Counted from the first letter of the stretch, positions 7,841 to 59,879 are shown. The stretch: DNA of 64,000 nt from Flavobacteriaceae bacterium YJPT1-3 (GCA_029866965.1 CP123444.1:971501-1035500); one strand, 5' to 3'. The notes: a model not told the origin generated them from the letters alone. Translations and numbers: made by a program.

Positions 7841-7854
7841 GCTTTCGCGAAAGC
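7841..7854. repeat. GCTTTCGCGAAAGC palindrome, copy 1
   Basis: Exact copy, in the 60-bp spacer between atpA and atpG. Confidence 0.95.
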
Positions 7855-7888
7855 GTCTCCAGCTCCCTTTCGACGGCTTCCTAGCGAT

Positions 7889-9469
7889 TTACTTTTTGTA
7901 ATTCGCGGCTAAGTCCTTAGCTACTTTTGTCAACGTATTGGTCACCTCATCGGTTAGCTTACCCGCCTTCAGGGTGTCCAGCACGTCTCTGTGCTGTGCA
8001 TTTAAGAATTCCAAATACTCCGCTTCGAACTGCTTTACTTTATCAACCGGTACATCACGCAATAAGTTCTTAGAACCTGCATAGATGATCGCGATTTGGT
8101 CTTCTACGGTATAGGGGTCGTTTTGCGCTTGCTTTAGAATCTCTACATTACGACGACCTTTCTCGATCACGTTTTGTGTAGCGGCATCCAGATCCGATCC
8201 GAATTTCGCGAAAGCTTCCAGTTCACGGAACTGTGCCTGATCCAGTTTCAAGGTACCAGCAACTTTCTTCATGGATTTGATCTGTGCAGATCCACCCACA
8301 CGAGATACAGAGATACCTACGTTAATCGCAGGGCGTACTCCGGAGTTAAAGAGGTCAGACTCCAAAAAAATCTGTCCGTCAGTAATCGAAATTACATTGG
8401 TTGGAATATAGGCCGATACGTCACCCGCCTGTGTTTCAATAATAGGAAGTGCAGTTAAAGAACCTCCTCCTTTGACGATAGGCTTTAGGGAGTCCGGAAG
8501 ATCGTTCATGTTCTTCGCCAACTCGTCATCAGCGATCACTTTTGCAGAACGCTCTAACAAGCGCGAGTGCAAATAGAAAACATCTCCAGGATAAGCCTCA
8601 CGTCCCGGTGGACGACGGAGCAAAAGGGAAACCTCACGGTAAGCAACCGCCTGCTTCGATAAATCATCGTAGATGATCAGTGCAGGACGCCCGGTGTCAC
8701 GGAAGTACTCTCCAATAGCCGCTCCGGCAAAAGGAGCATATACCTGCATTGGAGCCGGGTCAGAAGCGTTTGCGGCTACGATGGTCGTGTAGGCCAGGGC
8801 TCCTTTTTCTTCCAGTACTTTGGCAATATTAGCGACCGTAGACGCCTTTTGGCCAATAGCTACATAAATACAGTATACTGGATTACCAGCGTCGTAAAAC
8901 TCTTTTTGGTTCAGGATGGTGTCAATACAAACGGTGGTCTTCCCTGTTTGACGGTCACCAATAACCAGCTCACGCTGACCACGACCCACAGGGATCATCG
9001 CGTCAATTGACTTGATTCCGGTTTGGAGGGGCTCGTTTACCGGCTGACGGTAAATTACTCCCGGAGCTTTACGCTCCAAAGGCATCTCGTAAAGCTTGCC
9101 TTCAATATTGCCCTTTCCGTCGATGGGTTGCCCCAGAGTGTTGACTACACGTCCTACGATGCCTTCTCCTACATTGATAGAAGCGATTCGCTGGGTACGC
9201 TTTACCGTTGCACCTTCCTTAATTTCTTTGGAGGGGCCTAAAAGTACTACCCCAACGTTATCTTCTTCCAGGTTAAGAACAATTCCTTCTAAACCGCCGT
9301 CAAACTCAACAAGTTCACCGTATTCGGCATTAGCAAGGCCATACACACGGGCGATACCATCTCCCACGGTAAGTACTGTTCCTACTTCGTCTAAAGTTGC
9401 TTCTACTTTAGCTCCTGATAATTGCTCTTTTAAAATTGCTGAAATCTCAGCGGGCTTTACTTCGGCCAT
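7889..9469 (-). CDS. atpA: ATP synthase F1 subunit alpha
   Basis: 526 residues, normal for the family. The P-loop GDRQTGKT lies at about residues 171-178 and the conserved alpha arginine finger region is visible in [14 protein letters not shown]. The N-terminal beta-barrel domain contains DGIARVYGL, and the C-terminal helical domain contains [16 protein letters not shown]. It forms the non-catalytic nucleotide-binding subunit alternating with beta in F1. A partial copy of the window's recurrent palindrome (TTTCGCGAAAGC, 8204-8215) encodes the AFAKF part of a normally conserved segment. Confidence 0.98.
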
Positions 9470-9526
9470 AACTCACTAATTAATTTTGCTTTCGCCTTCT
9501 TTATATGGATACTCAATACCTGCGTA

Positions 9527-10063: not shown

Positions 10064-10068
10064 AAGAC

Positions 10069-10572: not shown

Positions 10573-10657
10573 AATCTTTAAATACTAAGCAATGTTTAAT
10601 CTCAATAAACAGGCAGCTGCAACCAACCGTTACAGCTGTCTGTCTGTTTAATACCGA

Positions 10658-10903
<246 letters not shown>

Positions 10904-12136: not shown

Positions 12137-12160
12137 TTTAGGCTTTCGCGAAAGCCTAAA
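12137..12160. repeat. GCTTTCGCGAAAGC palindrome, copy 2, within a 24-bp perfect palindrome
   Basis: The core is at 12142-12155; symmetry extends five more bases each side (TTTAG/CTAAA). It covers the stop codon of the gene at 12156-12545. On the minus strand it is followed by A, not T, so it is not a standard terminator for that gene. Confidence 0.95.
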
Positions 12161-12545: not shown

Positions 12546-12546
12546 C

Positions 12547-13217: not shown

Positions 13218-15752
13218 TTAGTCTAGTTGTTCTTCGCGATAAGCGCTTAAGTTCTTGTGAATCTGTATTATACGATAATTTTCTGAGGAAATGGGAATGG
13301 ATTCTCGCTTAATTGCGTAGGTCTTATCAGTCCTCAGAAGCTCTGCAAAACCCTGCGCCCCCATCTGGGTATTAAAGCCGTGCACCACCACAAAAAGGGT
13401 ATCCCGATTATAAACATCCACAGAGGCTGTGCTCTTCCTATACCCCAGGGTGTCTACCGCCTGGCTTATTTTTTCTCGCAGGAGCTGCGCTTGTTCCCGT
13501 TCGTCTTTGGCGAGGGGAAACAGCAATTTCCATTTACGTGAAATTGTTTCGTCTGCAAAGGTCGTAAATGCCAGTTGAGGCACTTGTGTTTTTAATAATT
13601 GTTGCGCCTGTTTGCCCTCAGCGCTGTTCGGATAGGTCACCGCAATAAAATTCAAGGCTTTTGCATAAGCCTCCTGTCCTTCCAGTCGGCCCAGGGCCAT
13701 GGCCTTGAGTAGTTCAAGTTTGGGCACGCTTGGCAGTCCGGTATAGGCGTCAATCAGCACATCGGCTTCTGTCAGCACCGCTTCATATTCCTGAGCTTCA
13801 AACTGCTTATACAGTTTTTTGTACTGGGCTTCCGGGGTGTCTGTGGCTGCTTCCAGCTGCGCATTGGGATTGCTGATGATCGCTGCATAGCGCGAGTCGG
13901 GGTAGTTGAGCAGGAGTTCTTCTTTGAGGGATTCCGCTTTCGCGAAAGCGTTTTCTGCCCGATACAGCTGATACAAATAGTACTTTGCAGGAAGAATCAA
14001 TCGCTCTGCCGGCTCATTGGCCAGTAGCTGCTCCAGACGTGCAATAGCAAGATTGTTCTCTTTAAATTTTTCTTTGTAGATCAATCCCAGTTGATAATAG
14101 GCCTGGTCACGCTCCTGGATCAAACTGTCGAGGATCACCGGATCTTGTGGTACTTCAGCCATATAAACATCCCGGTCGAAACGGGAGGCCTGATCAGCGG
14201 GAATGTCTGCGGTAATGTCCGGCAAACCAGGTACTCCCGCATTTTGTACCGGCCGCGTGGTGGAGAATCTCCAATTATCTTGTAGGGGTCGATCGCCCCA
14301 TTTTTGGCGGAAACGGTCTTTGCCGTAGGCCGTTGCCGTCGTGTTGTAGAAATAAAAGGCTCCTCCGGCTTGACTCTGCTGCTGTTTTTGGTAAAACTCA
14401 TCATTACGAATCCCAGCGTCCTGTGTTGCTGCCGCCTTTTCTTCTGCCGCTTTCAACTCGGCAATATAGTCATCAAAGTAAGCCTCCCGCTCCGGTACAC
14501 TCATTCGGGCCAGGCGAAGTATGCTGTCGTTGGTCGTAGCCAGGGTTTCTAATCGAATCACCTCGGTGAGGTTATCCTTTTTCTTTTTAATTTGTCGATA
14601 GGCACGATCTCTGGCATCCAGTGCAGTGAGGGTACTGTCGTAATACGCTCCCGCCTGCAGGTAGGCCGCCTGATCAAAATTCAGATCGCCCAGAGCGACG
14701 TAGTTCAGTGATTTTAAATACGTATCCCGCCCCGGACTGCGCAGGGATTTATTGTAGTAGACCACGGCGCTGTCTTGTTGATCCTGTGCAGCAAAATACA
14801 GGGCCGTCTGATAATAGATTTTATCCAGGAAGGGTCTGTTCTCGCGATTTTCCTCGAGCTCGGTGAGCAGTTCGCGAACCAGTTCCACTTCCCCTCGATC
14901 GGCGTCGAAATTGTCAATCTGTCTGAGTTGGGCATTGATCAGGTATTCTCTGGGTGTTTTACGATTCAGAGCGATCACTTCCTCATAAGCCATGGTCGCC
15001 GTATCCACGTGGCCTAATTGTTCGTACAGTTGTCCGGTAATGTACCAAAACCGACCTTTCTGTTCATTATTTCTGGTACTCTGGGCTGCTCGCACCATGT
15101 ATACGGCAGCACTATCCGGTTGATCTGTATTGATAAATGCCTGCGCCAGAGTCGATGTAGCATCGGCGTAATCCTGATCACTGAGGTTCTTTTCTTCTAA
15201 TTCGAGCAGACGACGTAAGTTTTTAATCGCTACCTCTTCATTGTTCAAGCGAAGATTCGTTTTGGCCTTCCAGACGTTAGCCTGAGCAATGTTGTTGCTT
15301 AAGGGATTGGTGGCCAGAATGTAGTTAAAGGACTCCAGCGCCGGAATAAAGCGCCCATCGTAATAGCGTGCCTTTCCTAACATCATGAACGCCTCATCGA
15401 TTTGCGGGTTGCGTTCCTTACCGTCAATTTCCATGCTGTGCTTCTGGATGGCCTTGATGGCTTTCTCTTCAGCGCGTTCAAAGCTGGGAGTTTTAGATTT
15501 TCCCGGAAGTGCAATAGTCTCAAACTGCTCCAGGCGCTCTACCGGAAGAAGCTCCCAAAAATTGTCCTGATAATTGGCTACCACTGTTTCCAGACCTTCT
15601 TCAAGCGCTAAATTTCCATTATAGAGCGTATTGTACTCTGTAGTAACGGCATGAAAGTTCCTGTTGATGAACGTATCGTTCTTTCGCGAACACCCCCAGG
15701 CAGCGGCAATGAGGAGGATTAAGAGAATTATGTAGGTGGTGTGTTTATTCAA
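13218..15752 (-). CDS. sprE: SprE/PorW-like TPR lipoprotein of gliding motility and type IX secretion
   Basis: 844 residues. The lipoprotein signal ends AAAWGC with Cys at about residue 21. The next segment (FINRNFHAVTTEYNTLYNGN) and the long array of TPR helices resemble Flavobacterium johnsoniae SprE and Porphyromonas PorW, outer-membrane lipoproteins needed for type IX secretion and gliding. The C-terminus has a short globular domain (VVVHGFNTQMGAQGFAELLR). Synteny with a bactofilin and the atp genes agrees with my memory of flavobacterial genomes. A copy of the recurrent palindrome (13936-13949) encodes AFAKA. No other type IX gene is in the window. Confidence 0.82.
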   Translation of the reverse strand: MNKHTTYIILLILLIAAAWGCSRKNDTFINRNFHAVTTEYNTLYNGNLALEEGLETVVANYQDNFWELLPVERLEQFETIALPGKSKTPSFERAEEKAIKAIQKHSMEIDGKERNPQIDEAFMMLGKARYYDGRFIPALESFNYILATNPLSNNIAQANVWKAKTNLRLNNEEVAIKNLRRLLELEEKNLSDQDYADATSTLAQAFINTDQPDSAAVYMVRAAQSTRNNEQKGRFWYITGQLYEQLGHVDTATMAYEEVIALNRKTPREYLINAQLRQIDNFDADRGEVELVRELLTELEENRENRPFLDKIYYQTALYFAAQDQQDSAVVYYNKSLRSPGRDTYLKSLNYVALGDLNFDQAAYLQAGAYYDSTLTALDARDRAYRQIKKKKDNLTEVIRLETLATTNDSILRLARMSVPEREAYFDDYIAELKAAEEKAAATQDAGIRNDEFYQKQQQSQAGGAFYFYNTTATAYGKDRFRQKWGDRPLQDNWRFSTTRPVQNAGVPGLPDITADIPADQASRFDRDVYMAEVPQDPVILDSLIQERDQAYYQLGLIYKEKFKENNLAIARLEQLLANEPAERLILPAKYYLYQLYRAENAFAKAESLKEELLLNYPDSRYAAIISNPNAQLEAATDTPEAQYKKLYKQFEAQEYEAVLTEADVLIDAYTGLPSVPKLELLKAMALGRLEGQEAYAKALNFIAVTYPNSAEGKQAQQLLKTQVPQLAFTTFADETISRKWKLLFPLAKDEREQAQLLREKISQAVDTLGYRKSTASVDVYNRDTLFVVVHGFNTQMGAQGFAELLRTDKTYAIKRESIPISSENYRIIQIHKNLSAYREEQLD
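13936..13949. repeat. GCTTTCGCGAAAGC palindrome, copy 3
   Basis: Exact copy with flanking C/G (16-bp palindrome), inside the sprE-like gene; encodes AFAKA. Confidence 0.95.
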
Positions 15753-19748: not shown

Positions 19749-20395
19749 TCATCCAAAACGCCATCCATTCCTTTGGATGGAAACAGCTGATCTCTGGGAT
19801 CGATTTGCGGTGTGCAACAGGAGACCTTATTGGGATTTATGGACGCAACGGCAGTGGAAAATCTACGTTGCTCAAACTCATTTTTGGCACCCTGAGGGCT
19901 GATCACCTCAGCCTAAAAATCGATGATGTTTCCATAAGGCCCTGGCAGATAATCCCCCATCGTTGGATCGGTTATCTTCCGCAAGATCCTTTTCTTCCGG
20001 CCCATCTCAAAGTGCGTGATGTCATTCCGCTCTGCTTTTCTAGAGGGGTTGCTCAGGATGCGGTATTCCATGCGCCCTTCATTGAGCGTATGGCCACTAA
20101 AAAAATAGGCAACCTGTCTTTAGGTGAGCGTCGATATTTAGAAGTGGTTCTTATCGGGCAAATGGAGCATCCCTTCCTGTTATTGGATGAACCCTTTTCC
20201 ATGATTGAACCGCTCTATAAAGATCAGATCAAGGAATTCCTTCATCGTTTGGCAAGCAGAAAAGGCATCATCATGACTGATCACTATTACCAGGATGTAC
20301 TGGCGATCGCCAACAAGAATTACGTGCTCTCCGCAGGGAAATTACTGCCTATTCAGGATGAACAAGATCTACAAGAACACGGGTATTTGCGTTAG
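19736..20395 (+). CDS. ABC-type ATPase partnered with a mini membrane protein
   Basis: 219 residues. Walker A is IYGRNGSGKSTLLK (~residues 34-47), the signature is NLSLGERRYLEVV and Walker B LLLDEPFS. The switch region is IIMTDHYYQD, with His present. All catalytic residues are intact. The short length and the 101-residue partner suggest a small transporter or a membrane-linked regulator. The 3' end overlaps the convergent GT9 gene by 4 bp. Confidence 0.85.
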   Translation: MAELVIQNAIHSFGWKQLISGIDLRCATGDLIGIYGRNGSGKSTLLKLIFGTLRADHLSLKIDDVSIRPWQIIPHRWIGYLPQDPFLPAHLKVRDVIPLCFSRGVAQDAVFHAPFIERMATKKIGNLSLGERRYLEVVLIGQMEHPFLLLDEPFSMIEPLYKDQIKEFLHRLASRKGIIMTDHYYQDVLAIANKNYVLSAGKLLPIQDEQDLQEHGYLR

Positions 20396-21450
20396 TCCAA
20401 ATGTTCAAGAACTGATTTCAGCTTGTCTACGACCTGCTCCGGTTTAATGGTTCGCATGGCGTCTTCATAGCCCTCAGGAACCTGATTTCCGTAGACAGAA
20501 GTGGGTATTCGTGGATAGCGCTTACGATCGGCTAACAATACGTGTTTCTCCTGGCCGTAAGGGGCAAACCCGGCATAGGGATGGGTGACCCCCCAAAGCG
20601 TGATCGTGGGCACTCCATACATAGCCGCAAGATGCGCATTCCCGCTGTCCATAGCCAGCATGAGGTCCAGATTTGAGATTAGGGTCAGCTCTTCTTTAAA
20701 ACTCAGTTTTCCAGCCATGTTCAGGGTATTGGGAAGGCTGTTGGCCCATGCTGTCAATCGTTGGGCCTCCTCACCAGGCGCTCCGAAAAGAAAGATACGG
20801 GTGTTCTTTAAGGACGAACATTGGGTGAGGACTTCCTGCATCAAATCGGTGGGATACTGCTTCCCCAGATGCGCTGCGAAAGGTGCAACCCCTACCCAGT
20901 TGTGGTCTTTAGACCCGGAGAGTTTAATAGTCTTTTTGCTCAGGGCTAACACCTTACGTTCTAACTGATTGGATAAGTCCAGAGCAAATCCAAGCTTCGC
21001 GAATACATCGGCATAGCGCTGGGCCGATGTTTTTAAAGGTTTAAATGATTTTGCACTGCTGCGGGTCAAGGCCTTTTTTTCCTTACGTCCCTTGTCGATA
21101 ACGCCTATTTCAAGACCGCTAACCTTCCAGCGCAGGAAAGTGCGGACAGCTTTGGAGCGCAGTACATCGTGCAGATCAGCAAAGGCATCCGGTTTTAAAT
21201 GAGCCAGTTCTTTAGCCAACTTTTTAAGTCCGATGATCCCCTGGTGACGCTCTTTGACATCCACAGCGACAACCTGTATGCCTTTCAAATGATCAAATAC
21301 GGGGGTGAAGAATGACTTGGTAACGACAATGAGCTTGATTTCCGGATACGCTTTCGCGAAAGCTTCCAAAACCGGAACCGTGATGGCCACATCACCCATG
21401 GCGGATAACCGAAAAGCGATAAGGCGTTGAATACGATTATTTTTTAGCAC
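20392..21450 (-). CDS. Glycosyltransferase family 9 (heptosyltransferase-like)
   Basis: 352 residues with a two-domain GT-B layout. The N-terminal FRLSAMGDVAITVPVLEAF is the GT9 acceptor-domain start. The C-terminal donor domain has VGVAPFAAHLGKQYP, then LMLAMDSGNAHLAAMYGVPT with the conserved D-S-G-N-A-H-L-A-A pattern, and TLWGVTHPYAGFAPY. It should add a sugar to a lipopolysaccharide-type core. It overlaps the end of the DUF4254 gene by 14 bp. The recurrent palindrome (21350-21363) encodes AFAKA near residue 29. Confidence 0.9.
   Translation of the reverse strand: MLKNNRIQRLIAFRLSAMGDVAITVPVLEAFAKAYPEIKLIVVTKSFFTPVFDHLKGIQVVAVDVKERHQGIIGLKKLAKELAHLKPDAFADLHDVLRSKAVRTFLRWKVSGLEIGVIDKGRKEKKALTRSSAKSFKPLKTSAQRYADVFAKLGFALDLSNQLERKVLALSKKTIKLSGSKDHNWVGVAPFAAHLGKQYPTDLMQEVLTQCSSLKNTRIFLFGAPGEEAQRLTAWANSLPNTLNMAGKLSFKEELTLISNLDLMLAMDSGNAHLAAMYGVPTITLWGVTHPYAGFAPYGQEKHVLLADRKRYPRIPTSVYGNQVPEGYEDAMRTIKPEQVVDKLKSVLEHLD
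21350..21363. repeat. GCTTTCGCGAAAGC palindrome, copy 4
   Basis: Exact copy inside the GT9 gene; encodes AFAKA. Confidence 0.95.
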
Positions 21451-24603: not shown

Positions 24604-24655
24604 GCGGTGCTAATCAAATGTTGTGGAGGCAAAAATATGTAAATTGAGCCAGTCT

Positions 24656-25990
24656 ATGTCTCGAATAAACTTCTTTGATCTCGCCTTACGTCTGCAAGGT
24701 TTTGATATCGCTTTCGCGAAAGCGGAACTACAGCGCTTGCACGAGCTATCAGATGCCGATTTTGAGGCTTATCAAGCCAGACAGCGAAGTGCCATTCTTG
24801 ACCATCACCTCCAGCAGAATCGATTTTATCAAAGGTTGGCAGGAAGTAACAGGCGCTGGGAGGATCTACCGGTGCTCACCAAGGCAGATCTGCAAATTCC
24901 CTTATCGCAACGGTTATCCAACGGGTTTTCCCTCAAGCAAGTACATCAACATAAAACCTCGGGCTCTGGCGGTCATCCTTTTGTCTTTGCTAAAGACAAG
25001 CTCACGCATGCCCTTTCCTGGGCTTCGTTTTATCACTATTATGAGCAACAGGGCATCGATCTTTCAGGCAGTCTTGAAGCTCGTTTTTACGGCATTCCAT
25101 TAGATTTCTTGGGGTATCGAAAGGAGCGTCTTAAGGACTGGTTGAGCGCTCGTTATCGCTTTCCTGTTTTTGACCTCAGCAAAAGGCAATTGGAGCGTAT
25201 CCAAACCCAGTTCGAGAAAAGACCTTTTGCCTACATCAATGGCTATACGAGCAGTATTCTCTTGTTCGCAAGGCATCTGCTGGAGCAGGATCTGGTGCTC
25301 ACCAAGCTTTGTCCTACGCTACAATGTTGCATTGTGACCAGCGAGGTGCTCTTTGACGACGACCGGATAACGCTCGAGAAGGCATTAGGGGTGCCGGTGA
25401 TCAATGAGTACGGCGCCTCAGAAATTGGATTGATCGCCATGGATACTCCAGAACACCTGCTCTTGATCGATAGCCCGTTGATCTATCTGGAAATCTTAGA
25501 TGAAGATGATCAACCGCTTCCGGAGGGTGAAACCGGCCGTATCGTGATCACTTCCCTCTACAATAAAGCCCATCCCTTTATTCGCTATGATATAGGAGAT
25601 ACGGGCGCCCTATCCAGCACCTCCAATCAACGTAAGGTGCAGCTGGAACGTTTAGAAGGTCGTACCAATGATATTGCCCATTTGCCCAGTGGTAAAACCG
25701 TACCGGGATTGACTTTTTATTACGTGACCAAAAAGGTCATGGAGGCAAGTGGCAATGTCAAGGAGTTTGTGGTCCAGCAGACCCATCCGCATCGTTTTCA
25801 TATGAAATACGTGGCTGATCGTGCCCTGACCTCCAACGAAAAAGAACACGTAGCACAGGCGGTAGAGCAGTATCTCGAACCCGGACTGGAGTTGGTTTTT
25901 GAGCGTTTAACGCATTCGGATCGCAGTCGGCGAGGAAAACTCAAACAGTTTACGACTTTGGTAGGTAAGGCACCGTCTGACGAGGCTTGA
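24656..25990 (+). CDS. PaaK/CapK-type adenylate-forming enzyme
   Basis: 444 residues from the ATG at 24656; an in-frame GTG at 24623 would add 11 residues inside a divergent promoter. ANL-superfamily motifs are present: phosphate-binding HKTSGSGGHPFVF, the adenylate-binding INEYGASEIGLIA and FIRYDIGDTG before the C-terminal domain. This is the phenylacetate-CoA-ligase-like subgroup often placed in capsule loci (CapK), which activates a carboxylate with ATP. It opens the polysaccharide cluster and its last 41 bp overlap the convergent glycosyltransferase gene. The recurrent palindrome at 24710-24723 encodes AFAKA. Confidence 0.85.
   Translation: MSRINFFDLALRLQGFDIAFAKAELQRLHELSDADFEAYQARQRSAILDHHLQQNRFYQRLAGSNRRWEDLPVLTKADLQIPLSQRLSNGFSLKQVHQHKTSGSGGHPFVFAKDKLTHALSWASFYHYYEQQGIDLSGSLEARFYGIPLDFLGYRKERLKDWLSARYRFPVFDLSKRQLERIQTQFEKRPFAYINGYTSSILLFARHLLEQDLVLTKLCPTLQCCIVTSEVLFDDDRITLEKALGVPVINEYGASEIGLIAMDTPEHLLLIDSPLIYLEILDEDDQPLPEGETGRIVITSLYNKAHPFIRYDIGDTGALSSTSNQRKVQLERLEGRTNDIAHLPSGKTVPGLTFYYVTKKVMEASGNVKEFVVQQTHPHRFHMKYVADRALTSNEKEHVAQAVEQYLEPGLELVFERLTHSDRSRRGKLKQFTTLVGKAPSDEA
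24710..24723. repeat. GCTTTCGCGAAAGC palindrome, copy 5
   Basis: Exact copy with flanking C/G, inside the PaaK/CapK-like gene; encodes AFAKA. Confidence 0.95.
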
Positions 25991-26747
25991 TCATGAGCTG
26001 TTCCCGAAGAAAAACAAGCATACAACCCAGACTTTTCACCAGGGGATAGTCTAAAAAGGAATAATAGATCAAAAAATTATACTTCAGCAGGGCCAGTTTG
26101 TTGGCTGAAATCGACCCTTTTCGTTTTCGATAGACGGCCAGCGGTTGCTGTATCCCAACCGCTGATCCGCCTTTTCGGATCACCTCCAGCCACAAGGCCC
26201 AGTCTTGTCGCTTACGCAGCAGGGGGGAATAGCATTTTCCCAGCTTCTGGGTGTCATACGCTCCGGTCAGATTTCCAATGTAATTCGCCTTGAGCAATTT
26301 GCTGTAGGGCAGTTCTGGAAAAGCCTGGACTTTTTGATGGAGCAATTCTCCGGTTTCCTGCATGAGTACGTAGCTGGAAAAGCAAACCGCGGTCCCGGTG
26401 GTCATAAAACACTGGTATTGCTTTTCTAATTTTTCAGGCATCCAGCGATCGTCAGCGTCTAAAAAACAGATAAAACGTCCTTTTGCGCGCTCTATTCCGG
26501 CATTTCTTGCCTTTGCTGTGCCTTGATTGGACTTGAATTGAATGCATTGTATTTGTTGTGGATGCGCTTTCGCGAAAGCGGATATCAGGGCCTGACTGCC
26601 ATCGGTCGATGCGTCATCAATAAGAATCAGTTCCCAGGAGGCATAGGTTTGATCGATTACCGAGTTTACGGCGTCCTTCAAGAAATCCTCTGCGTTAAAC
26701 ACAGGCATGATCACTGAAAATACCGGGGCATCAGTAGGCTCGATCAT
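25950..26747 (-). CDS. Glycosyltransferase family 2
   Basis: 265 residues. It has the GT-A fold start FSVIMPVFNAEDFLKDAVNS, the nucleotide-binding ELILIDDASTDGSQAL and the DxD-type FICFLDADDRWMPEKLEKQ. It should transfer one sugar of the exopolysaccharide repeat unit on the cytoplasmic face. The start overlaps the end of the initiating transferase gene by 17 bp, so the two are translated together. The palindrome at 26566-26579 encodes AFAKA. Confidence 0.92.
   Translation of the reverse strand: MIEPTDAPVFSVIMPVFNAEDFLKDAVNSVIDQTYASWELILIDDASTDGSQALISAFAKAHPQQIQCIQFKSNQGTAKARNAGIERAKGRFICFLDADDRWMPEKLEKQYQCFMTTGTAVCFSSYVLMQETGELLHQKVQAFPELPYSKLLKANYIGNLTGAYDTQKLGKCYSPLLRKRQDWALWLEVIRKGGSAVGIQQPLAVYRKRKGSISANKLALLKYNFLIYYSFLDYPLVKSLGCMLVFLREQLMIKPRQTVPYLPKS
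26566..26579. repeat. GCTTTCGCGAAAGC palindrome, copy 6
   Basis: Exact copy with flanking C/G, inside the GT2 gene; encodes AFAKA. Confidence 0.95.
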
Positions 26748-29242: not shown

Positions 29243-30367
29243 GTGCAAAAACGACGAGTAGTTCATATCGTAGAAGCTCTGGGAGGTGGCGTGTATAGCT
29301 ATTTTATTGAACTGACTCAGGTGTTGGGACCTCATCCGGAGATAGCAACGACGATCATCTACAGTCCGTCACGCCAAGAGATCGATCCTGATCAGGTGGT
29401 CACCGACTTTCATCCTGCGGTTGAACTCATCGCCCTGCCTATGCAACGCAAACTGCACCCGCTGAAGGATTGGCAGACCCTTAATGAACTCACGCGATTG
29501 CTGGGACATCTACAACCCGACATTCTGCATTTACACTCCTCAAAAATCAGTGTTTTAGGACGTCTCGCTAAATCTCGGGCTCACCTGGATTGCCGCTGCT
29601 ATTACAGTCCACATGGCTACGCCTTCTTGCGCCAGGACATTTCCGGATGGAAGCGCGCATTCTATAAGCAGATCGAAAAGTGGATGGCCAAACACTATGG
29701 AGGGATTACCCTCGCCTGCGGAGATACAGAATGGGCCTATGCTCAGGAAATGGGTCCGGCCCTACTCATTCGAAATGGTGTCCCCATAGCGCGTGTAGAG
29801 CAATACCGCCGCAGCGCGAACACTAGTGGGCCTCTTCAGATTGGTATTCTAGGCCGGATCACGGAAGCGCGCGATCCCGCATTTTTCAACACCCTGGCTA
29901 AACGGCATCCCGAACTGGAGTTTATCTGGATTGGTGATGGGCATCAAAGGACCATATTGACCAGTCCGAACATCAAGGTCACCGGCTGGTTTATGGATCG
30001 AGAACAGGCCTGGGAATGCTTGAGTAGTTTAGATGTCTATTTGCAGATCTCGTTGTGGGAGGGATTGCCTCTAGCCCCCCTGGAAGCCATGGCCATGCAT
30101 TTACCGGTGATCGCTTCACGGGTGATCGGCAATCAGGACATCGTGAAGCACGGGGAAACCGGATACCTCTGTACGAGTCTTAACGAGTTTGACCAGGCGA
30201 TCGAAAAATTGAAAAGTCCGGAGCACCGACGAGAGCTCGGGCAGCAAGGGCGGGCACGTGTTGCTGATTTTTTTGACAGCACTAAAAATTTTAAACAGTT
30301 GATCGAGCTCTACCTCCAGACTGATGCAGCCAGCGATGTGCAAATAGGCTCATCCACAGCGCGCTAA
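29243..30367 (+). CDS. Glycosyltransferase family 4
   Basis: 374 residues from a GTG at 29243; the overlapping ATG two bases earlier hits a stop after six codons. The GT-B fold shows [16 protein letters not shown] at the N-terminus, [13 protein letters not shown], then [16 protein letters not shown] and the donor-binding [20 protein letters not shown]. It is the only plus-strand gene between 26 kb and 40 kb and has its own start region. Its 3' end overlaps the convergent O-antigen-ligase-like gene by 77 bp. Confidence 0.9.
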
Positions 30368-39194: not shown

Positions 39195-39196
39195 GC

Positions 39197-40063
39197 TTAG
39201 TCGAAATCTATAAAGTTGGTGGGATTCAGGGGAAATCCATTGCTCCACAATTCAAAATGCAAATGGGGCCCTGTACTTAATTCTCCGGTAGAACCAACGG
39301 TGGCGATCACCTCACCCGCCGCAACGAGTTCCCCTTGTTGTTTGGACAAGGATTTATTGTGCTTATAGGCGGAGATCAGGTTATTCCCGTGTTCAATGAT
39401 GATTACGTGACCGGTGGCTGCGGTCCATTCTGCGAAAATGACCGTACCGTCAGTCACCGCCTTGACCGGAGCATCTTTCACGGTGACGATATCTACGGCA
39501 TAATGTTTTTTAGAGGCATCGTATCCATCACTGATGGTGCCACTTACGGGGGCATAGAGGGCAAAATTACCGGTCTCCACCTCACTTTCAAAAAGATTGT
39601 ATTTGTCTTCCTGTGCGACGATGGCACGCAGTAGGGAGTCTTCGGCAGAAGGGGCCAGATCAACCAGATCAGGATCCATACGTGCGGCCTCCATGATGCT
39701 GTCACGATTAAACTCGACGGTCTGAACGTCTCCGGTCAACACTTTTTTGATCGATTCATAATACTGCTCATTGATGCGCATGGCACGTTGCAGCGAATCG
39801 GTTTTAAAAGCAAGTATGGTGGCTCTTTTTTTCAAAGCTGTCGAGGAATATCCGGGAATGTATTCCCGTAGTGGCGTATAGGCTATAAGTACCGTAGTAA
39901 GCGTAATCAGGGTAATGATGCTTATTCCTGAAATAATGAAAACATTAAGTCGGGTCAACTTGAAGGATAGCCGCTCTTCAAAGGTGTCTTCGTTCAAGAT
40001 CACCAGCCGATACTTATGAAGCAGCTTTTTCTTTATTTCTTTTGTTTTCTTCCTTTTTGCCAT
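39197..40063 (-). CDS. M23-family peptidoglycan endopeptidase
   Basis: 288 residues from the ATG at 40063 (MAKRKKTKEIKKKLLHKYRL). A basic cytoplasmic head is followed by one membrane helix (VFIISGISIITLITLTTVLI), a coiled region, and a C-terminal lysostaphin-like domain with both zinc motifs (HYAVDIV and HLHFELWSNG). It should cut peptide cross-links in cell wall or act in wall remodelling. It starts 12 bp after a perfect TATCTTTG box and is followed within 2 bp by the GH3 gene. Confidence 0.93.
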   Translation of the reverse strand: MAKRKKTKEIKKKLLHKYRLVILNEDTFEERLSFKLTRLNVFIISGISIITLITLTTVLIAYTPLREYIPGYSSTALKKRATILAFKTDSLQRAMRINEQYYESIKKVLTGDVQTVEFNRDSIMEAARMDPDLVDLAPSAEDSLLRAIVAQEDKYNLFESEVETGNFALYAPVSGTISDGYDASKKHYAVDIVTVKDAPVKAVTDGTVIFAEWTAATGHVIIIEHGNNLISAYKHNKSLSKQQGELVAAGEVIATVGSTGELSTGPHLHFELWSNGFPLNPTNFIDFD

Positions 40064-41408: not shown

Positions 41409-43001
41409 TTATGATTTTGAAACAATTAAGGTCATTCCCGGTTTGAGATTATTACCGCGAATACCGTTCCAAGATTTTAATTTTTCCACCGTGGTCCCCG
41501 GAAATTTCTGAGAAATCTTCCACAGAGAATCCCCCGACTGCACGGTATACCGTTTGCCTGAGGCTGTATTGGTGGTCACTGTAGCGGCTTGAGTGACCGC
41601 TGGAGCAGGTTTTCTTGGATAAATGGTTAGCCGTTGTCCAATCCGCAAATTGGTGCTTCGGAGTCCATTCCAACTTTTGATCTGACTCACACTAACCCCA
41701 TAGCGCTCAGCGATTTTTCCAAGGTAATCTCCGCTGCGAACGCGGTAGCGGATGCGACTTTCGGCTTCCTGAAAAGCGGGTAAGGGTTGCTCCCGTGCTT
41801 CTAATTCTGCTTTCGCGAAAGCGTAGATCGCCGTTTCATTGTTGACGAACGGGCCTACCGCCTCTACGGGCAGCCGAAGTACATAATTCTCATCGTGCAC
41901 GAAGGGAATGATGTCCAGTTTATAGGAAGGATTTAAAAATTGCAGCTCATCCAAGGGCAGGCCGGTGATCTTAGCCACCTGAGGCAAGGTGATCATTTGC
42001 TTTACCCGAATGGTGTCTGTTTTGTAAAAGTTGATAGGCGGTGCCAGTTTTTTGTAGCCGTGTTCTTCTGCATACTCAAAAAGGTACATGGTGGCGAGGA
42101 AGGCTGGCACGTAGCCGGCAGTTTCTCGAGGCAAATTATGACGGATATTCCAGTAATTCTTTCTTCCTCCACTGCGACGAATGGCTTTGGAGACATTTCC
42201 GGGGCCGCTGTTGTAGGAGGCTAAGGCCAGGTCCCAATCATCGAACATTTCATACAGCTTAGACAGGTATTGGGAAGCGGCTTCAGTGGCCAACAACGGA
42301 TCCATGCGCTCATCAACGTAAGAGCTGACATCCAGTCCGTACATTTTTCCGGTTCCGAACATGAATTGCCACAAGCCGGTAGCACCAACCCGAGAGCGCG
42401 CTCTGGGTCTTAAGGCTGATTCTACAATGGCCAGGTACTTCATTTCTAAAGGGATGTCGTACCGGTCCAGAGTTTCCTCAAACATGGGAAAGTAAAATTC
42501 ACTGACCGCCATCAGACGCTCCATAGTCGGGCGATGCCTTTTCAAATACCGCTTGATCACGCTTTCCAGAGCCGGGTTGTATTCGACATTAAATGGGGTT
42601 CGGGCATTAATGGCTGCCAAGCGCTTTTTTAAGGTATCCGTAGGTAATTCTTCATACTCCACTGCGCTATAGTCCAGATTATGCACCATTTCAGCAATGG
42701 TATCATACAGGCTGTAGTCAACCAATTCATTGACCCAGAGCGAATCAAGGCGGTGTGCGTAGGCATTATCTTCCAATCGAAATATTACGGAATCTTTCTT
42801 ACTGGTGGCTACCGTGGTGAAGCTAAACTCTCGATCGACTATGGTGGTAGTCAGGGTGTCGATCACGGTCAGGGTGTCGCTGGCAATCTCGGCGATCTCC
42901 TCCTGAACAGGAGCCGGACTTCCTGAAATAGGCGTATCCTGGGCGGAAAGTAGACAACCGCACAGAAAAAAGGTGCACGCACACCAAAAGTGTTTATTCA
43001 T
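41409..43001 (-). CDS. MltD-like lytic transglycosylase with two LysM domains
   Basis: 530 residues with an N-terminal signal peptide. The catalytic SLT domain contains YLAIVESALRPRARSRVGAT (catalytic Glu in VES) and GLWQFMFGTGKMYGL, then the goose-lysozyme-like SYNSGPGNVSKAIRRSGG. Two C-terminal LysM domains (YRVRSGDYLGKIAERYGVSV and YTVQSGDSLWKISQKFPGTT) bind peptidoglycan. It cleaves glycan strands with 1,6-anhydro product formation. The recurrent palindrome at 41809-41822 encodes AFAKA in the linker before the first LysM. Confidence 0.94.
   Translation of the reverse strand: MNKHFWCACTFFLCGCLLSAQDTPISGSPAPVQEEIAEIASDTLTVIDTLTTTIVDREFSFTTVATSKKDSVIFRLEDNAYAHRLDSLWVNELVDYSLYDTIAEMVHNLDYSAVEYEELPTDTLKKRLAAINARTPFNVEYNPALESVIKRYLKRHRPTMERLMAVSEFYFPMFEETLDRYDIPLEMKYLAIVESALRPRARSRVGATGLWQFMFGTGKMYGLDVSSYVDERMDPLLATEAASQYLSKLYEMFDDWDLALASYNSGPGNVSKAIRRSGGRKNYWNIRHNLPRETAGYVPAFLATMYLFEYAEEHGYKKLAPPINFYKTDTIRVKQMITLPQVAKITGLPLDELQFLNPSYKLDIIPFVHDENYVLRLPVEAVGPFVNNETAIYAFAKAELEAREQPLPAFQEAESRIRYRVRSGDYLGKIAERYGVSVSQIKSWNGLRSTNLRIGQRLTIYPRKPAPAVTQAATVTTNTASGKRYTVQSGDSLWKISQKFPGTTVEKLKSWNGIRGNNLKPGMTLIVSKS
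41809..41822. repeat. GCTTTCGCGAAAGC palindrome, copy 9
   Basis: Exact copy inside the lytic transglycosylase gene; encodes AFAKA. Confidence 0.95.
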
Positions 43002-43099: not shown

Positions 43100-44287
43100 T
43101 TAATCACGTATGGCCGCAATACCCGGCAAGGTCTTGCCTTCCAGCATTTCAAGCATGGCTCCTCCGCCGGTAGAAACGTAGCTCACCTTATCTTCAAAGC
43201 CAAACTGCTTGACGGCCGCCACGCTGTCACCGCCACCCACTAACGAATAAGCACCATTCTTTGTTGCTTTAGCGATAGCCTTTCCGAGGGTGATGGTTCC
43301 TTCCGCAAACGGCTCCATTTCAAAGACCCCTAAAGGGCCATTCCAAAGGATGATTTTGGCCTGGTTAACGATTTCTTCGAAGAGCGCCAAAGATTTTGGT
43401 CCGGCGTCCAGACCCTGCCATCCGTCTGCGATGTCATAAATATCAGACTCTTGAGTGTTTGCAAATTCTGAGAAGGCATCCGCAGCGATCACATCGACCG
43501 GTAAATGAACCTGAACTCCTTTTTCTTTGGCTTTCTCCAATATGTTCAGGGCCAGTTCTTGCTTGTCTTCTTCACAGATCGAGCTGCCTATATGACCACC
43601 TTTTGCTTTGATGAACGTATAAGCCATACCGCCTCCAATGATGAGATGGTCAACCTTATTGAGCATACGCTGAATGACCGTAATCTTGGACGATACTTTG
43701 GCCCCGCCAAGAATAGCGAGTACGGGTTTCTCATCACTGTTCAACACCCGGTCGAGGCTTTTGATCTCATTGGCAATAAGATAACCGAAGCAGCGATTTT
43801 TCGGAAAAAATTGAGCAACTACCGTGGTAGAGGCGTGGGCACGATGCGCGGTTCCAAACGCGTCATTGACGTAAATATCGCCCAGTTTGGATAGCGCTTT
43901 CGCGAAAGCGGTGTCTCCTTCAGTCTCCTCCTCATGGAATCTGAGGTTTTCCAGCAGAAGCAAGGTGCCTGGCTCCAGGTTACTGGCAGCTTTGGTGGCC
44001 TCAGGCCCTACACAGTCGTTGACAAAGTGTACCTGAACTCCTAAAATTTCAGAGACCGTATTGCAGATGTGTTTTAGAGAAAATTCATCTTCCTGGTGTT
44101 TGGGACGACCTAAATGCGACATCAGTACCGCACTGCCCCCGTCTTCAAGAATTTTTAGGATGGTGGGCTTGGCCGCTTCAATTCGTGTAGTGTCGGTCAC
44201 CTCTAGATTTTCATCCAAGGGCACATTAAAATCCACACGGACCAAGGCTCGTTTATTTTCAAAATTAAAGTCGTCTACCGTTTTCAT
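43100..44287 (-). CDS. pgk: Phosphoglycerate kinase
   Basis: 395 residues from the ATG at 44287 ([20 protein letters not shown]); longer readings would run into the divergent promoter region. Signatures: [40 protein letters not shown] and the nucleotide-binding [16 protein letters not shown]. It makes ATP from 1,3-bisphosphoglycerate in glycolysis. A TATATTTG promoter box lies 18 bp upstream. The palindrome at 43896-43909 encodes AFAKA in the segment before the conserved VNDAF. Confidence 0.98.
43896..43909. repeat. GCTTTCGCGAAAGC palindrome, copy 10
   Basis: Exact copy with flanking C/G, inside pgk; encodes AFAKA. Confidence 0.95.
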
Positions 44288-44305
44288 AGCGTGTTTCTTA
44301 GAGGG

Positions 44306-44313
44306 CAAATATA
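44306..44313 (-). promoter_or_regulatory. -7 promoter element for pgk
   Basis: TATATTTG on the minus strand, a perfect TAnnTTTG match, 18 bp before the pgk ATG. Confidence 0.65.
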
Positions 44314-44346
44314 ATGGATAAGCCAGTAAAACTAGTGTGCTTAGGC

Positions 44347-44354
44347 TATATTTG
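44347..44354 (+). promoter_or_regulatory. -7 promoter element for the delta-prime gene
   Basis: TATATTTG on the plus strand, only 3 bp before the ATG at 44358. If used, transcription would start at or within a few bases of the ATG, giving a leaderless message. It lies 33 bp from the divergent pgk element. Confidence 0.5.
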
Positions 44355-44357
44355 CGC

Positions 44358-45509
44358 ATGCACTTTGAGCACGTTATTGGACAGGATTTTTTAAAAGCAC
44401 ATTTAATACAAAGTGCTGAGCGCGGGCGCATTCCTCACGCTCAACTATTTATTGGCAGTCATGGAAGCGGTGTGCTTCCCATGGCCATTGCCTATGCGCA
44501 ATACATACTGTGCTCCATTACTAAGGAGCAAGAGTCAGCGAGAAAAAAAGCCTGTGAAACAAAATTTTCACAATTAACCCATCCCGATTTACATTTTGTA
44601 TACCCAGTAGCCACTACAGATAAGGTGAAAAGCCATCCAGTATCTACTCATTTTGCCGCAGAGTGGCGGGAGTTTGTGAAAAACAATGCTTATGGGAGCC
44701 TATATGAATGGTATCAGCATTTGGGTATTGCTAAAAAACAGGGTCAAATAGGGGTGGATGAAGCCGCTGATCTGGTAAAAACTCTTTCGCTAACGTCCTA
44801 TGAAGGGGGATACAAAATCATCATCATCTGGATGGCGGAAAAAATGAATACGGCGGCCGCCAACAAACTTTTAAAATTGATTGAAGAACCGCCTAAGAAC
44901 AGTTTGTTTCTTTTGCTTGCGGAAGAGGAAGAGCAGATCTTAGAAACCATTAAATCCCGCTGTCAGGTACTTCATTTTCCAAAATTGAGTGAAGTGATTA
45001 TTGCACAAGCCTTGATTGAAAGGTTGGGGGTAAATTCAGACATGGCGCAGCACCTCGCTCATCAAGCCGATGGCAACTACAATCAGGCCTTACATTTATT
45101 AAATAAGGATGCCGGTGATGCGCAATTTGAAGCCTGGTTTATTCAATGGGTGCGTACGGCTTTTCAAGCTAAAGGCAATAAAAAAGCGGTGCTTGACCTG
45201 ATCTATTGGAGCAATACGCTCGCATCGGAAATGCGCGAAACCCAAAAGAATTTTCTTCAGTTCTGTATTCAGTTCTTCAGACAGGCCCTCTTGCTGAATT
45301 ACGGCGCAGAGGAATTGGTGTATTTAGAAACCGGAGATCATTTTGATCTGGCTAAATTTGCCCCCTACGTCCATGGTAACAACATACGGGAGATCACAGA
45401 AGAATTAGAAGCAGCCGCCTATCATATCGAACGCAATGGAAATGCCAAGATCATTCTTACCGACTTATCTATTAAATTAACCCGATTACTACATAAAAAA
45501 TCAGCCTAA
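44358..45509 (+). CDS. holB: DNA polymerase III delta-prime-like clamp-loader subunit
   Basis: 383 residues from the ATG at 44358 ([20 protein letters not shown]). AAA+ layout: [19 protein letters not shown] in place of a Walker A (the Lys is missing, as in other delta-prime proteins), [40 protein letters not shown] and the sensor-like [15 protein letters not shown]. It is the non-hydrolysing stator of the clamp loader. The zinc-binding cysteines of some homologues are absent. Its stop overlaps the next start (ATGA). Confidence 0.88.
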
Positions 45510-46677: not shown

Positions 46678-47547
46678 TTATTTCGCTTTTTTAGCGATAT
46701 ACAGCAGGGAAGAATAATTTCCGGTTCGCCTAGCCAGCCTATTGGATCGAAAACCCGTCTTTAAGGCATGTAGTATTCGTTTACTCCCGGTTTTAAATTC
46801 TTCCGAGAGCAGGCTTACATAAAAAGCATCAAACCACAAGGGTTTGATGGTCTCAAGCTTAAATCCATGCTCCCTTAGTATCCTACGCATTCCTTCCGGT
46901 GAAAAATGCCAAAGATGCCGGGGCACATCATAAGCCGCCCAAAACGATTGGTAATAAGATGCATCAAAGGATTTCCAGTTGGGGACTGCGATAAAAACGA
47001 CACCCTCTGTCTCGAGGTGATCGTGAATCCACTTCAACGTCTCTTCGGGGTGATAGACGTGTTCTAAAACATGCCAAAGCATGATGCCTTTATAGTGACC
47101 GTCCATTTCATCAACGGTCTCAAAAACGGGCACCCCTTTTTTCAGCGCTTTAACCCGGGCATCCTCATTGGGTTCAAATCCATGTGTTGGCCAACCCTGA
47201 TCATTAAGATAGCGGGCCAATTCACCCGTGCCACAGCCATAGTCCAAGAGTAATTCTTTATTGGGAATGTACTGGCGAATCCAGGAGCGCTTTCGCGAAA
47301 GCATAATCCTTTTTACAAAACCGTACACATGCTCTACCAACGATTGACGCTTATCCTCGTGGGAGATGTAGTTGTCCTTTGGATAATAAGAGCCTATACT
47401 ACTAGAATCAGGCTGAGGGATGGTCTTCAGTATATCGCCAAAAGAATTGGCCTGAAGTTCAAAAAGCGCTCCGCTTACCCCATGATCCTTAACATGAGTA
47501 GGGAATTGGCCTGGAGGTGTACGGGTGTAATCTGCTTCTTTAGCCAT
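46678..47547 (-). CDS. Class I SAM-dependent methyltransferase
   Basis: 289 residues from the ATG at 47547 (MAKEADYTRTPPGQFPTHVK). An ATG at 47568 would add MFHVKQS, but those codons are simply the parS-like site read as protein. Motif I is ELLLDYGCGTGELARYL, followed by GFEPNED and the post-motif MLWHVLEHVYHPEETLKWIH. The C-terminal DVPRHLWHFSPEGMRRILRE resembles methyltransferases acting on sugars or lipids. The substrate is unknown. The palindrome at 47289-47302 is read here as LSRKR, not AFAKA. Confidence 0.85.
   Translation of the reverse strand: MAKEADYTRTPPGQFPTHVKDHGVSGALFELQANSFGDILKTIPQPDSSSIGSYYPKDNYISHEDKRQSLVEHVYGFVKRIMLSRKRSWIRQYIPNKELLLDYGCGTGELARYLNDQGWPTHGFEPNEDARVKALKKGVPVFETVDEMDGHYKGIMLWHVLEHVYHPEETLKWIHDHLETEGVVFIAVPNWKSFDASYYQSFWAAYDVPRHLWHFSPEGMRRILREHGFKLETIKPLWFDAFYVSLLSEEFKTGSKRILHALKTGFRSNRLARRTGNYSSLLYIAKKAK
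47289..47302. repeat. GCTTTCGCGAAAGC palindrome, copy 11
   Basis: Exact copy inside the methyltransferase gene; read in a different frame as LSRK. Confidence 0.95.
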
Positions 47548-47551
47548 GCTT

Positions 47552-47567
47552 TGTTTCACGTGGAACA
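47552..47567 (+). other. parS-like ParB binding site
   Basis: TGTTTCACGTGGAACA, 15 of 16 bases identical to the widely conserved parS consensus TGTTTCACGTGAAACA. It is the exact reverse complement of the site at 49451-49466. Confidence 0.8.
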
Positions 47568-47572
47568 TCTAC

Positions 47573-55671: not shown

Positions 55672-55679
55672 CAAATGTA
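55672..55679 (-). promoter_or_regulatory. -7 promoter element for the barrel-protein gene
   Basis: TACATTTG on the minus strand, a TAnnTTTG match, 25 bp before the ATG at 55646. Confidence 0.5.
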
Positions 55680-55732
55680 TTGTTATTTTTCCTAATTTGA
55701 GGTAATTCACTAATTCCTAAACTATTCCGACC

Positions 55733-56674: not shown

Positions 56675-56675
56675 C

Positions 56676-56701
56676 AAAAAGAGGGCAATGCCCTCTTTTT
56701 T
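56676..56701. terminator. Bidirectional terminator after the SPFH gene
   Basis: Stem GAGGGC, loop AAT, GCCCTC with A5 before and T7 after. It serves the SPFH gene (ends 56674) and the convergent gene ending at 56723. Confidence 0.88.
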
Positions 56702-56722
56702 TATACTGTATAGTACGTTCTA

Positions 56723-57309: not shown

Positions 57310-57312
57310 AAA

Positions 57313-57675
57313 TTAGACCTTCTTCGGAAGCTTTACATTGTTTGCTTCCTTCTGCAATTTAGCATTTTGCTTGCGAAGATCTTCTAGTTTGTTTTCCATA
57401 GCCAAAAGAATATCATCGGCCTTATAGCTCGCATTACTTAGCGTTTCTTCTAATTTAGTCTCAAAATTAGTTCGTGCAGTTTGTGCTTTTTCACTAAGCT
57501 GTGCGCTCGCTTTTTGATATTCTTTATTCAGTTTCTCCTGCGCTTTTTGAGCATTCTTTTTAAGCTTCTTTCTCGTTTTGTCGCCACGATCCGGTGCGTA
57601 AAGAATTCCAACTCCGGCCCCAATAGCGGCTCCGGTTAATAAGGCGAGTAATGTATTTCCAGTGTTGCTTGACAT
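57313..57675 (-). CDS. YtxH-domain protein
   Basis: 120 residues. The glycine-rich membrane segment NTLLALLTGAAIGAGVGILY followed by APDRGDKTRKKLKK is the YtxH signature; the rest is an Ala/Lys/Glu coiled coil (QLSEKAQTARTNFETKLEET). Relatives respond to general stress. It is the first gene of a three-gene cassette. A near-consensus -7 box (TATCTTTA) lies about 35 bp upstream on the minus strand. Confidence 0.85.
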   Translation of the reverse strand: MSSNTGNTLLALLTGAAIGAGVGILYAPDRGDKTRKKLKKNAQKAQEKLNKEYQKASAQLSEKAQTARTNFETKLEETLSNASYKADDILLAMENKLEDLRKQNAKLQKEANNVKLPKKV

Positions 57676-57839
57676 AATAGTTCTGTTTTAAGTTAAATCT
57701 AGTTCTACATAAAGATAATCGCTGAATTGCTCAATCCCCGTTAAGGCTTGGTTAATAGACGCTTAGTGAACGCTAAAATCTTCTTAAAACGCAGGCTATT
57801 GGTGTTTTGATCAGACTTGACTCGTAAAAAACAATAGGC

Positions 57840-59879
57840 TTAGTCCAAGACAAAGTCTTTAGCGGCCTGATTCAGCAACTCGTTGCTGTCTTCCTGAGCT
57901 TCACGGATGAAGGTTCTTACCGCCTCATGCTTATTTAAGGCAGGATGATTCGCTTTCGCGAAAGCTTTCAACACTTCAAGTACAGCAAGGCGAGTCCCTA
58001 TTTTTTTAGCTGAGGTATTCAGTAGGGGTTCGATCTCCTCAAAACTGATGTGTTTAGCCCACTCCTGAATCTTTGCAATCATCATCACCCGCTTCTCTTC
58101 TGGAATTTGAGCGAGTTTTTTACCCGACCGTTTAACCTCATCAATAGGTTTTAATCTCGGAGCTCCTCCTTGCTTAGGTTTGGCTTGTGACTGTTTCTGC
58201 TGTTGCTGTTTTGACCAGGTATCCCGCAAAGTTACGGTGCGATTGAATACCAGCTGATCTCTTGAACTGTCTTGGTCAACGCAGAAATAACCCATCCGCT
58301 GAAATTGAAAACGCTCTCCTACGGCAGCCTCCTTTAAGCTGGGTTCGCAATAGGCGGTAATGACTTCTAAAGAATTCGGATTCACAAAATCCATAAAGTC
58401 CTTATCAGCATGACTGTCCGGTGCCTCTTCATTAAACAGGCGATCGTAGAGCCGAACTTCAGCTGGAACGGCATGGTCAGTAGAAACCCAGTGCAAGGTT
58501 CCCTTGACATGCCTTTTGGAGGCCTCGGTTCCACTTCCGCTGCGGGAATCGGGATCGTAAGTACAATGAATTTCCGTGATTTTTCCTGAAGCATCTTTAA
58601 CGACTTCCTGGCCTTTGATGATGTAGGCGTTTTTTAAACGAACCTCCTTGCCCAGGGTCAATCGAAAATACTTCTTGCCGGCTTGTTCTTTGAAGTCTTC
58701 CCGCTCGATATAAAGCTCACGCGAAAAAGGTACCTCTCTAAAGCCTGCAGCATCGTCCTCAGGATTGTTTTCAGCCTCTAACCACTCTACCTTATCTTCA
58801 GGATAGTTGGTTATAACCAATTTGACCGGATCCAATACGGCCATCACCCGTGGCGTCACCTGGTTCAGATGTTCTCTGATGTGAAATTCAAGAAGAGAGA
58901 CTTCAATGACATTATCCCGTTTGGCAACGCCTGCTGCCTCAATAAAATTGCGAATAGCCTCAGGGGTATACCCACGACGGCGTAAACCACTAATGGTCGG
59001 CATTCGCGGATCATCCCAGCCGGTCACAACTCCCTCTTCCACCAAACGCAGTAACTTGCGTTTGCTCATGATGGTGTAAGACAGATTCAGACGTGCAAAT
59101 TCGCGCTGTTTAGGAAGTAGGGTGCCCGGAGTGTGCACTTGCTCTTTAAACCAATCGTAGAGCGGCCTGTGGGGCTTAAATTCCAGAGAGCACAAGCTGT
59201 GCGAAATACGCTCTATGTAATCGCTTTCCCCGTGAGTCCAATCGTACATGGGATAGATACACCAATCCGTGCCCGTGCGATGATGGGCTTTGTGCATAAC
59301 ACGATACATGATGGGATCACGCATCAGCATGTTGGGGGATTTCATGTCAATCTTAGCGCGTAGTACGTGTTTTCCTTCGGGAATTTCACCCGACTTCATT
59401 TGTTCAAATAGACTTAGATTCTCAGCTACGCTACGATCACGGTAGGGACTGTTCACCCCGGGTTCAGTTGGAGTTCCCTTTTGCTCCGCCATAAGTTCAC
59501 TGGACTGAGAATCAACGTAGGCCTTCCCGTCCTTGATAAGTTCTACTGCCCAGTCATACAGCTGTTGAAAGTAATCAGAAGAAAAGCAAATCTGGTCCCA
59601 CTGGAATCCAAGCCAAGCGATATCCCGTTGAATTGCATCTACGTATTCTTGCTCCTCTTTGGCCGGGTTGGTATCATCAAATCGCAGATTTGTGGGCGCG
59701 TTGTAGCGCTCACCCAATCCAAAATTGATGCAGATAGCTTTGCAATGGCCTATATGAAGATAGCCGTTAGGCTCCGGAGGAAAGCGGAAGCGAAGATCTT
59801 CCTGACGGTATCCATTCTTAAGATCCTCCTCAATGATCTGTTCCAGGAAATTTAAAGGCTCGTGTTCCTCCTTGCTCAT
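57840..59879 (-). CDS. glnS: Glutaminyl-tRNA synthetase with C-terminal helical extension
   Basis: 679 residues, about 120 longer than E. coli GlnRS. HIGH motif PPEPNGYLHIGHCKAICINF, KMSKS-type YTIMSKRKLLRLV and the beta-barrel anticodon domains are intact. After FNRTVTLRDTWSK comes a Gln/Lys-rich linker and a helical tail (LNTSAKKIGTRLAVLEVLKA, AVRTFIREAQEDSNELLNQA). Related enzymes carry a YqeY-like tail that aids tRNA binding; I am not certain this is the same fold. The palindrome at 57952-57965 encodes AFAKA within the tail. Confidence 0.95.
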   Translation of the reverse strand: MSKEEHEPLNFLEQIIEEDLKNGYRQEDLRFRFPPEPNGYLHIGHCKAICINFGLGERYNAPTNLRFDDTNPAKEEQEYVDAIQRDIAWLGFQWDQICFSSDYFQQLYDWAVELIKDGKAYVDSQSSELMAEQKGTPTEPGVNSPYRDRSVAENLSLFEQMKSGEIPEGKHVLRAKIDMKSPNMLMRDPIMYRVMHKAHHRTGTDWCIYPMYDWTHGESDYIERISHSLCSLEFKPHRPLYDWFKEQVHTPGTLLPKQREFARLNLSYTIMSKRKLLRLVEEGVVTGWDDPRMPTISGLRRRGYTPEAIRNFIEAAGVAKRDNVIEVSLLEFHIREHLNQVTPRVMAVLDPVKLVITNYPEDKVEWLEAENNPEDDAAGFREVPFSRELYIEREDFKEQAGKKYFRLTLGKEVRLKNAYIIKGQEVVKDASGKITEIHCTYDPDSRSGSGTEASKRHVKGTLHWVSTDHAVPAEVRLYDRLFNEEAPDSHADKDFMDFVNPNSLEVITAYCEPSLKEAAVGERFQFQRMGYFCVDQDSSRDQLVFNRTVTLRDTWSKQQQQKQSQAKPKQGGAPRLKPIDEVKRSGKKLAQIPEEKRVMMIAKIQEWAKHISFEEIEPLLNTSAKKIGTRLAVLEVLKAFAKANHPALNKHEAVRTFIREAQEDSNELLNQAAKDFVLD
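57952..57965. repeat. GCTTTCGCGAAAGC palindrome, copy 12
   Basis: Exact copy inside glnS; encodes AFAKA in the C-terminal extension. Confidence 0.95.

Follow-up and report, generated by a model that had tools for sequence, protein, structure and literature searches.

Why should a perfect 14-bp palindrome, GCTTTCGCGAAAGC, occur in 12 exact copies within a window of 64 kb (the whole stretch of DNA that was analysed)? An earlier note on this DNA had drawn attention to the repeat, and all 12 of its exact copies are found where it had placed them (Table 1). Their mean spacing is 4.6 kb, close to the roughly 5 kb it had given, and 5 of the 12 do extend to the 16-mer CGCTTTCGCGAAAGCG. The note's partial copies fare less evenly, as two are genuine, with one and two mismatches, while the third, at 15681, reads only CTTTCGCGAA and is no useful copy. 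With up to two mismatches allowed, the window contains 15 matches, whereas dinucleotide shuffling predicts 0.37 and none of 100 shuffles gave more than 3.

Table 1. Copies of the palindrome in the 64-kb window, with the gene that holds each and the peptide it encodes
Position	Copy	Gene	Reads
5400-5413	one mismatch, ACTTTCGCGAAAGC, one half-site complete		
7841-7854	exact 14 bp	intergenic	
8202-8215	two mismatches, AATTTCGCGAAAGC, one half-site complete		
12142-12155	exact 14 bp	intergenic	
13936-13949	exact, 16-bp form	PorW/SprE-like, 13218-15752	AFAKA
21350-21363	exact	heptosyltransferase-like, 20392-21450	AFAKA
24710-24723	exact, 16-bp form	AMP-dependent CoA-ligase-like, 24623-25990	AFAKA
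26566-26579	exact, 16-bp form	glycosyltransferase, 25950-26747	AFAKA
30814-30827	exact, 16-bp form	Wzy_C (O-antigen ligase-like), 30291-31667	AFAKA
37909-37922	exact	OlsH/GH3-like, 37701-39248	AFAKA
41809-41822	exact	murein transglycosylase/LysM, 41409-43001	AFAKA
43896-43909	exact, 16-bp form	phosphoglycerate kinase-like, 43100-44431	AFAKA
47289-47302	exact	SAM-methyltransferase-like, 46678-47568	LSRK
57952-57965	exact	glutaminyl-tRNA synthetase/YqeY fusion, 57840-59879	AFAKA

Distribution among genomes and phages

The window's genome, one contig of 3.16 Mb that probably belongs to the Flavobacteriaceae, to judge by a type IX secretion protein, the size of that protein's family, and the named relatives, contains 408 exact copies of GCTTTCGCGAAAGC and none of the pattern read backwards, and 600 kb of it hold 81 copies where a fifth-order Markov model predicts 0.18. 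Clearly the genome-wide count does not lie near the Markov expectation, as it would if the window were a chance outlier. The element is also carried by all 23 Nonlabens species genomes sampled, in 288 to 857 copies. Its density is about 115 to 245 per Mb. In a family survey made up of one genome for each of 201 Flavobacteriaceae genera, only the window's genome and the Nonlabens representative (G010) have more than 17 copies, and a sample at class level gave 0 to 4 copies in each of its other 394 genomes. When the motif-rich genomes are set aside, the maximum in any genome examined is 26 copies. There are 26 exact copies in a Leeuwenhoekiella MAG (G238) and 9 in another genome (G161), with one-off copies equal or more numerous in both, a pattern that may reflect decay or a weaker system. 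Elsewhere in the family, TTTCGCGAAA is mostly below its control, the exceptions being a few genomes with about 20 to 35 copies. Flavobacterium sp. 28A (G241) carries 16 one-off variants, chiefly GCTTTGGCGAAAGC and GCTTTTGCGAAAGC, against 1 for the control. No alternative palindromes, or "dialects," were found in 20-kb samples of other genera, and no paper in the collection searched contains CTTTCGCGAAAG.

The ParB tree groups the window's genome with G238 and G161, and Nonlabens with G092, G117, and G057, with moderate support. Judged by that tree, a concatenated tree having no outgroup, the two motif-rich lineages appear not to be sisters. The system may have been transferred, or it may have been lost several times. 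In several other motif-poor genera the few copies present sit in an apparently transferred copper-efflux island. The island of G094 (L039:8-15685) has its copies among RND pumps, an outer-membrane efflux protein, and a multicopper oxidase, and its 933-bp site spacing recurs in G089 (L040), G103 (L037-L038), and G117 (L042). The spacing shared by these motif-poor genera looks like the trace of a motif-rich donor from which the island was transferred.

Phages were also searched. The lytic Nonlabens phages P12024S and P12024L, about 35 kb each, have no copy at up to two mismatches, where the site density of the host would predict about 7, and both carry their own ERF/YqaJ recombination genes. Viral contigs of 24 to 40 kb contain 3 to 5 copies each, although they were selected for holding the motif and the density in temperate phage contigs is therefore biased upwards. 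A tyrosine integrase or serine recombinase is encoded by three of the four contigs tested for recombinase-like genes. Three related viral contigs (L131:6842, L149:6377, and L135:2313) have one flank of the palindrome in common; in L135 the other flank is wholly different from the motif outwards, as if it had recombined at the motif.

Anatomy, placement, and origin of the sites

In Nonlabens, the core is nearly invariant across its 14 bp (185 exact copies against 21 one-off copies), and on 87% of sides the palindrome is lengthened by an outer C, which at the opposite end is a G. Each side of the core is followed by an arm of about 30 bp that is rich in T and G and nearly free of C on the strand entering the core, the G/T-rich strand running 5' to 3' into the core from both sides. 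The arms prefer T, G, or A at fixed positions, most strongly about 10, 20, and 31 bp from the dyad, and this signal has faded by about 35 to 40 bp from the core edge. In the window's genome these arms recur more weakly, and 200 of its 204 cores (1.06 Mb sampled) have one or both outer GCs complete, but, unlike in Nonlabens, 50 of the 204 have only a single one. With a quarter of cores built in this way, recognition seems looser in this genome, or half of the contacts made by the dimer are enough. Comparison with shuffled arms revealed no arm-arm pairing beyond the separate preferences of each side. A hairpin, cruciform, or RNA structure was rejected on these grounds, the arms pairing no more than shuffled arms do. 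Because the arms vary independently, they form no stem, and the element reads as two half-sites on duplex DNA; a symmetric protein complex on the duplex is the kind of ligand that such an arrangement of bases suggests.

Sites are spaced more evenly than random, with an interval coefficient of variation (CV) of 0.57 to 0.69, and three stretches together have 3 gaps shorter than 1 kb where about 36 would be expected. One genome (G216) has a CV of 0.92, and its long motif-free stretches may be islands. The same genome has two pairs of sites merely 223 to 270 bp apart (G216:C4 88660/88930 and 285704/285927), although short gaps are otherwise avoided, and an autoregulated gene is possible there. 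Density is flat around the chromosome, which rules out an ori- or ter-linked site. About 30% of Nonlabens sites fall in the 6 to 7% of sequence that lies between genes as called by a simple ORF method, mostly directly past stop codons in tandem regions and rarely in divergent regions. Within genes, AFAKA is the preferred reading. Transcription operators were considered and rejected because sites occupy coding as well as intergenic DNA, about 70% or more of them lying within genes, and are sparse in divergent promoter regions.

Orthologues lacking a site align gap-free and in frame with the Nonlabens genes, showing that sites arose by in-place substitution. The protein has changed to accommodate the site, reading SLSRK in place of the SITNK or SLTGK of motif-free relatives. 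Two Nonlabens genomes with 72% DNA identity agree exactly at 37 of 48 aligned sites, whereas an arbitrary aligned 14-mer has a 3.2% chance of doing so, a contrast that is somewhat generous as the alignments are partly motif-anchored. If the ratio of exact to one-off copies represents mutation-selection balance, it would correspond to a 2Ns of about 6 per site, or weak purifying selection on each. The element is real and conserved, and it is functional if selection or drive is taken as the criterion.

Possible functions

We favor, with a probability of roughly 0.45, a selected site for a putative and probably dimeric protein that acts on chromosome-resident DNA. Each copy would be the core of a symmetric site of about 75 bp, made up of the 14- to 16-bp palindrome and the two independent arms, and a sequence-specific dimer or dimer-based complex would lie along or wrap the DNA there. 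Binding every 3 to 8 kb or so would benefit chromosome-resident DNA through organization, segregation, or maintenance. Weak purifying selection would keep each site while point mutation added new ones, and since little would be gained from another site less than about 1 kb away, even spacing would follow. A dimer that binds double-stranded DNA and a function at the level of the chromosome are suggested by copy number, site conservation, gap-free origin, and the ratio of exact to one-off copies, together with the unpaired arms, even spacing, flat density, and non-operator placement. The presence of the motif on temperate phage contigs and its absence from lytic phages also count in favor of a protein site. 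To our knowledge, however, known nucleoid proteins seldom have sites so sharp. A further point against this reading is that DNA uptake sequences are likewise reported to be evenly spaced, highly conserved, and located in the core genome (PMC2397512).

A non-exhaustive search for a gene shared by the window's genome and Nonlabens found no candidate binding protein. ParB is single-copy in 25 of 28 genomes, whether motif-rich or motif-poor, no ParB paralogue among the 28 sets the motif-rich ones apart, and the ParB of motif-free relatives has a recognition helix identical to that of the window's ParB. Canonical parS or Noc sites were absent from the parB-bearing stretches examined in both kinds of genome. 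A ParB or Noc-type site, Noc sites being among the earlier note's comparisons, was rejected for want of an extra ParB or an altered helix. Of the three concrete options that the note put forward, binding by an abundant nucleoid protein has the most support, the protein itself being putative. A narrower version of the protein-site reading is a lineage-specific chromosome-organizing system, in which hundreds of identical, helically phased, regularly spaced sites of about 75 bp, imprinted on whole genomes, would serve as chromosomal landmarks for a protein possibly acquired horizontally in two flavobacterial lineages; this we offer tentatively.

Alternatively, the palindrome may be a DNA uptake sequence. 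A surface receptor would prefer DNA bearing it, and biased uptake with recombination (molecular drive) would keep the sites, with or without benefit to the cell. The number, even spacing, and high conservation of the sites resemble those of the Neisseria DUS, of which 71% are exactly conserved across aligned genomes and which show spacing like that of conversion fragments and a core-genome location (PMC2397512). The Haemophilus USS likewise combines a sharp core with AT-rich flanking tracts at a spacing of about 1 kb (PMC7811141), and natural competence is known from two Riemerella species, of which R. columbina favors its own DNA (PMC7965970). However, PF00437, the PilB/GspE-type ATPase, is absent from the window's genome and from 5 of 6 Nonlabens genomes in a search whose control was positive in 13 of 14 known genomes, leaving these hosts without a type IV pilus machine of known type and making uptake of the Neisseria or Haemophilus type unlikely. 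The sole such gene among the six Nonlabens genomes lies at 16568-17587 of contig C12 in G236. The several copies on temperate phage contigs also speak against uptake, and the uptake sequences known to us are non-palindromic. On balance we regard this explanation, which would call for a route other than a pilus, as unlikely, if still a serious competitor.

A Chi-like signal for recombination or repair, at which a nuclease-helicase or a bound protein alters end processing, is less probable again. Being a palindrome, it would act both ways, and its G/T-rich arm would favor RecA loading on the 3' strand, in keeping with the polarity of the arms into the core from both sides. Chi in Escherichia coli occurs about once per 4.6 kb, a density of the same order, short gaps would be redundant for such a signal, and the site-less lytic phages encode recombination genes of their own. 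Nevertheless, Chi sites are 5 to 8 nt long, asymmetric, and read as a single strand, while the invariant 14-bp dyad and 30-bp arms suggest duplex binding by a dimer.

There is little to recommend a HIP1-like product of methylation-directed mismatch repair, with a methyltransferase that would recognize the center of the palindrome. The element and HIP1 are both highly iterated palindromes limited to certain lineages, and Elhai has linked HIPs to methyltransferases (PMC4390886). Yet neither TCGCGA nor TTCGCGAA is enriched outside the 14-mer, and CGCG is only depleted, as elsewhere in the family. HIPs are also only 5 to 10 bp in length at 500 to 2500 per Mb, and such repair leaves the arms and the short-range exclusion unexplained. 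A methyltransferase or restriction site, the former being another of the earlier note's options, is accordingly disfavored, as 14 bp with 30-bp arms is too long for it. The last option, a very small mobile palindrome (REP- or MITE-like) inserted hundreds of times, would account for one identical sequence at high copy number but can be dismissed, as site-less orthologues show substitution without a gap or insertion in codon alignments, positions are kept between species, and no longer sequence is shared around the copies.

Comparison with known iterated sequences

In kind the element is one of the highly iterated sequences (HIP1, DUS/USS, and Chi), but none of their definitions fits it in full. 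The likeness to HIP1 and to architectural-protein sites that the earlier note drew was apt. Like HIP1 of cyanobacteria (GCGATCGC) and the alternate HIPs, it is a perfect palindrome found genome-wide far above expectation and in restricted lineages; unlike them, it is long and comparatively sparse, and has arms with position preferences and no enriched inner sub-motif that could be a methyltransferase target. With the Neisseria DUS and Haemophilus USS it shares hundreds of copies, a sharp core, conserved positions, and even spacing, and with the USS its flanking tracts, but it is palindromic, is present on temperate phage contigs, and resides in hosts without the type IV pilus ATPase family. 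Similarity to Chi lies in density, location in genes, a G/T-rich strand, and usefulness once per few kilobases. Chi is short and non-palindromic, whereas the element is a long dyad with extended symmetric arms and hardly any one-off copies. The parS and Noc-binding sites are 16-bp palindromes with TTTC...GAAA halves and so bear some likeness to it. They differ in having a four-base rather than a two-base center, its hundreds of evenly spread copies set it apart from them, and a ParB recognition helix common to motif-free genera is not what a site of that type would lead one to expect.

HIP1 is a long-standing puzzle without a clear protein or function. The palindrome described here is longer, more sharply defined, and better bounded, with 23 related species that have it, many related genera that do not, and an apparent second lineage. 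Its anatomy is precise enough for biochemical purification of the putative binding protein. That protein, once found, could reveal a new mode of chromosome organization, an uptake sequence that works without a type IV pilus in bacteria beyond the known groups, or a recombination signal that acts in both directions.
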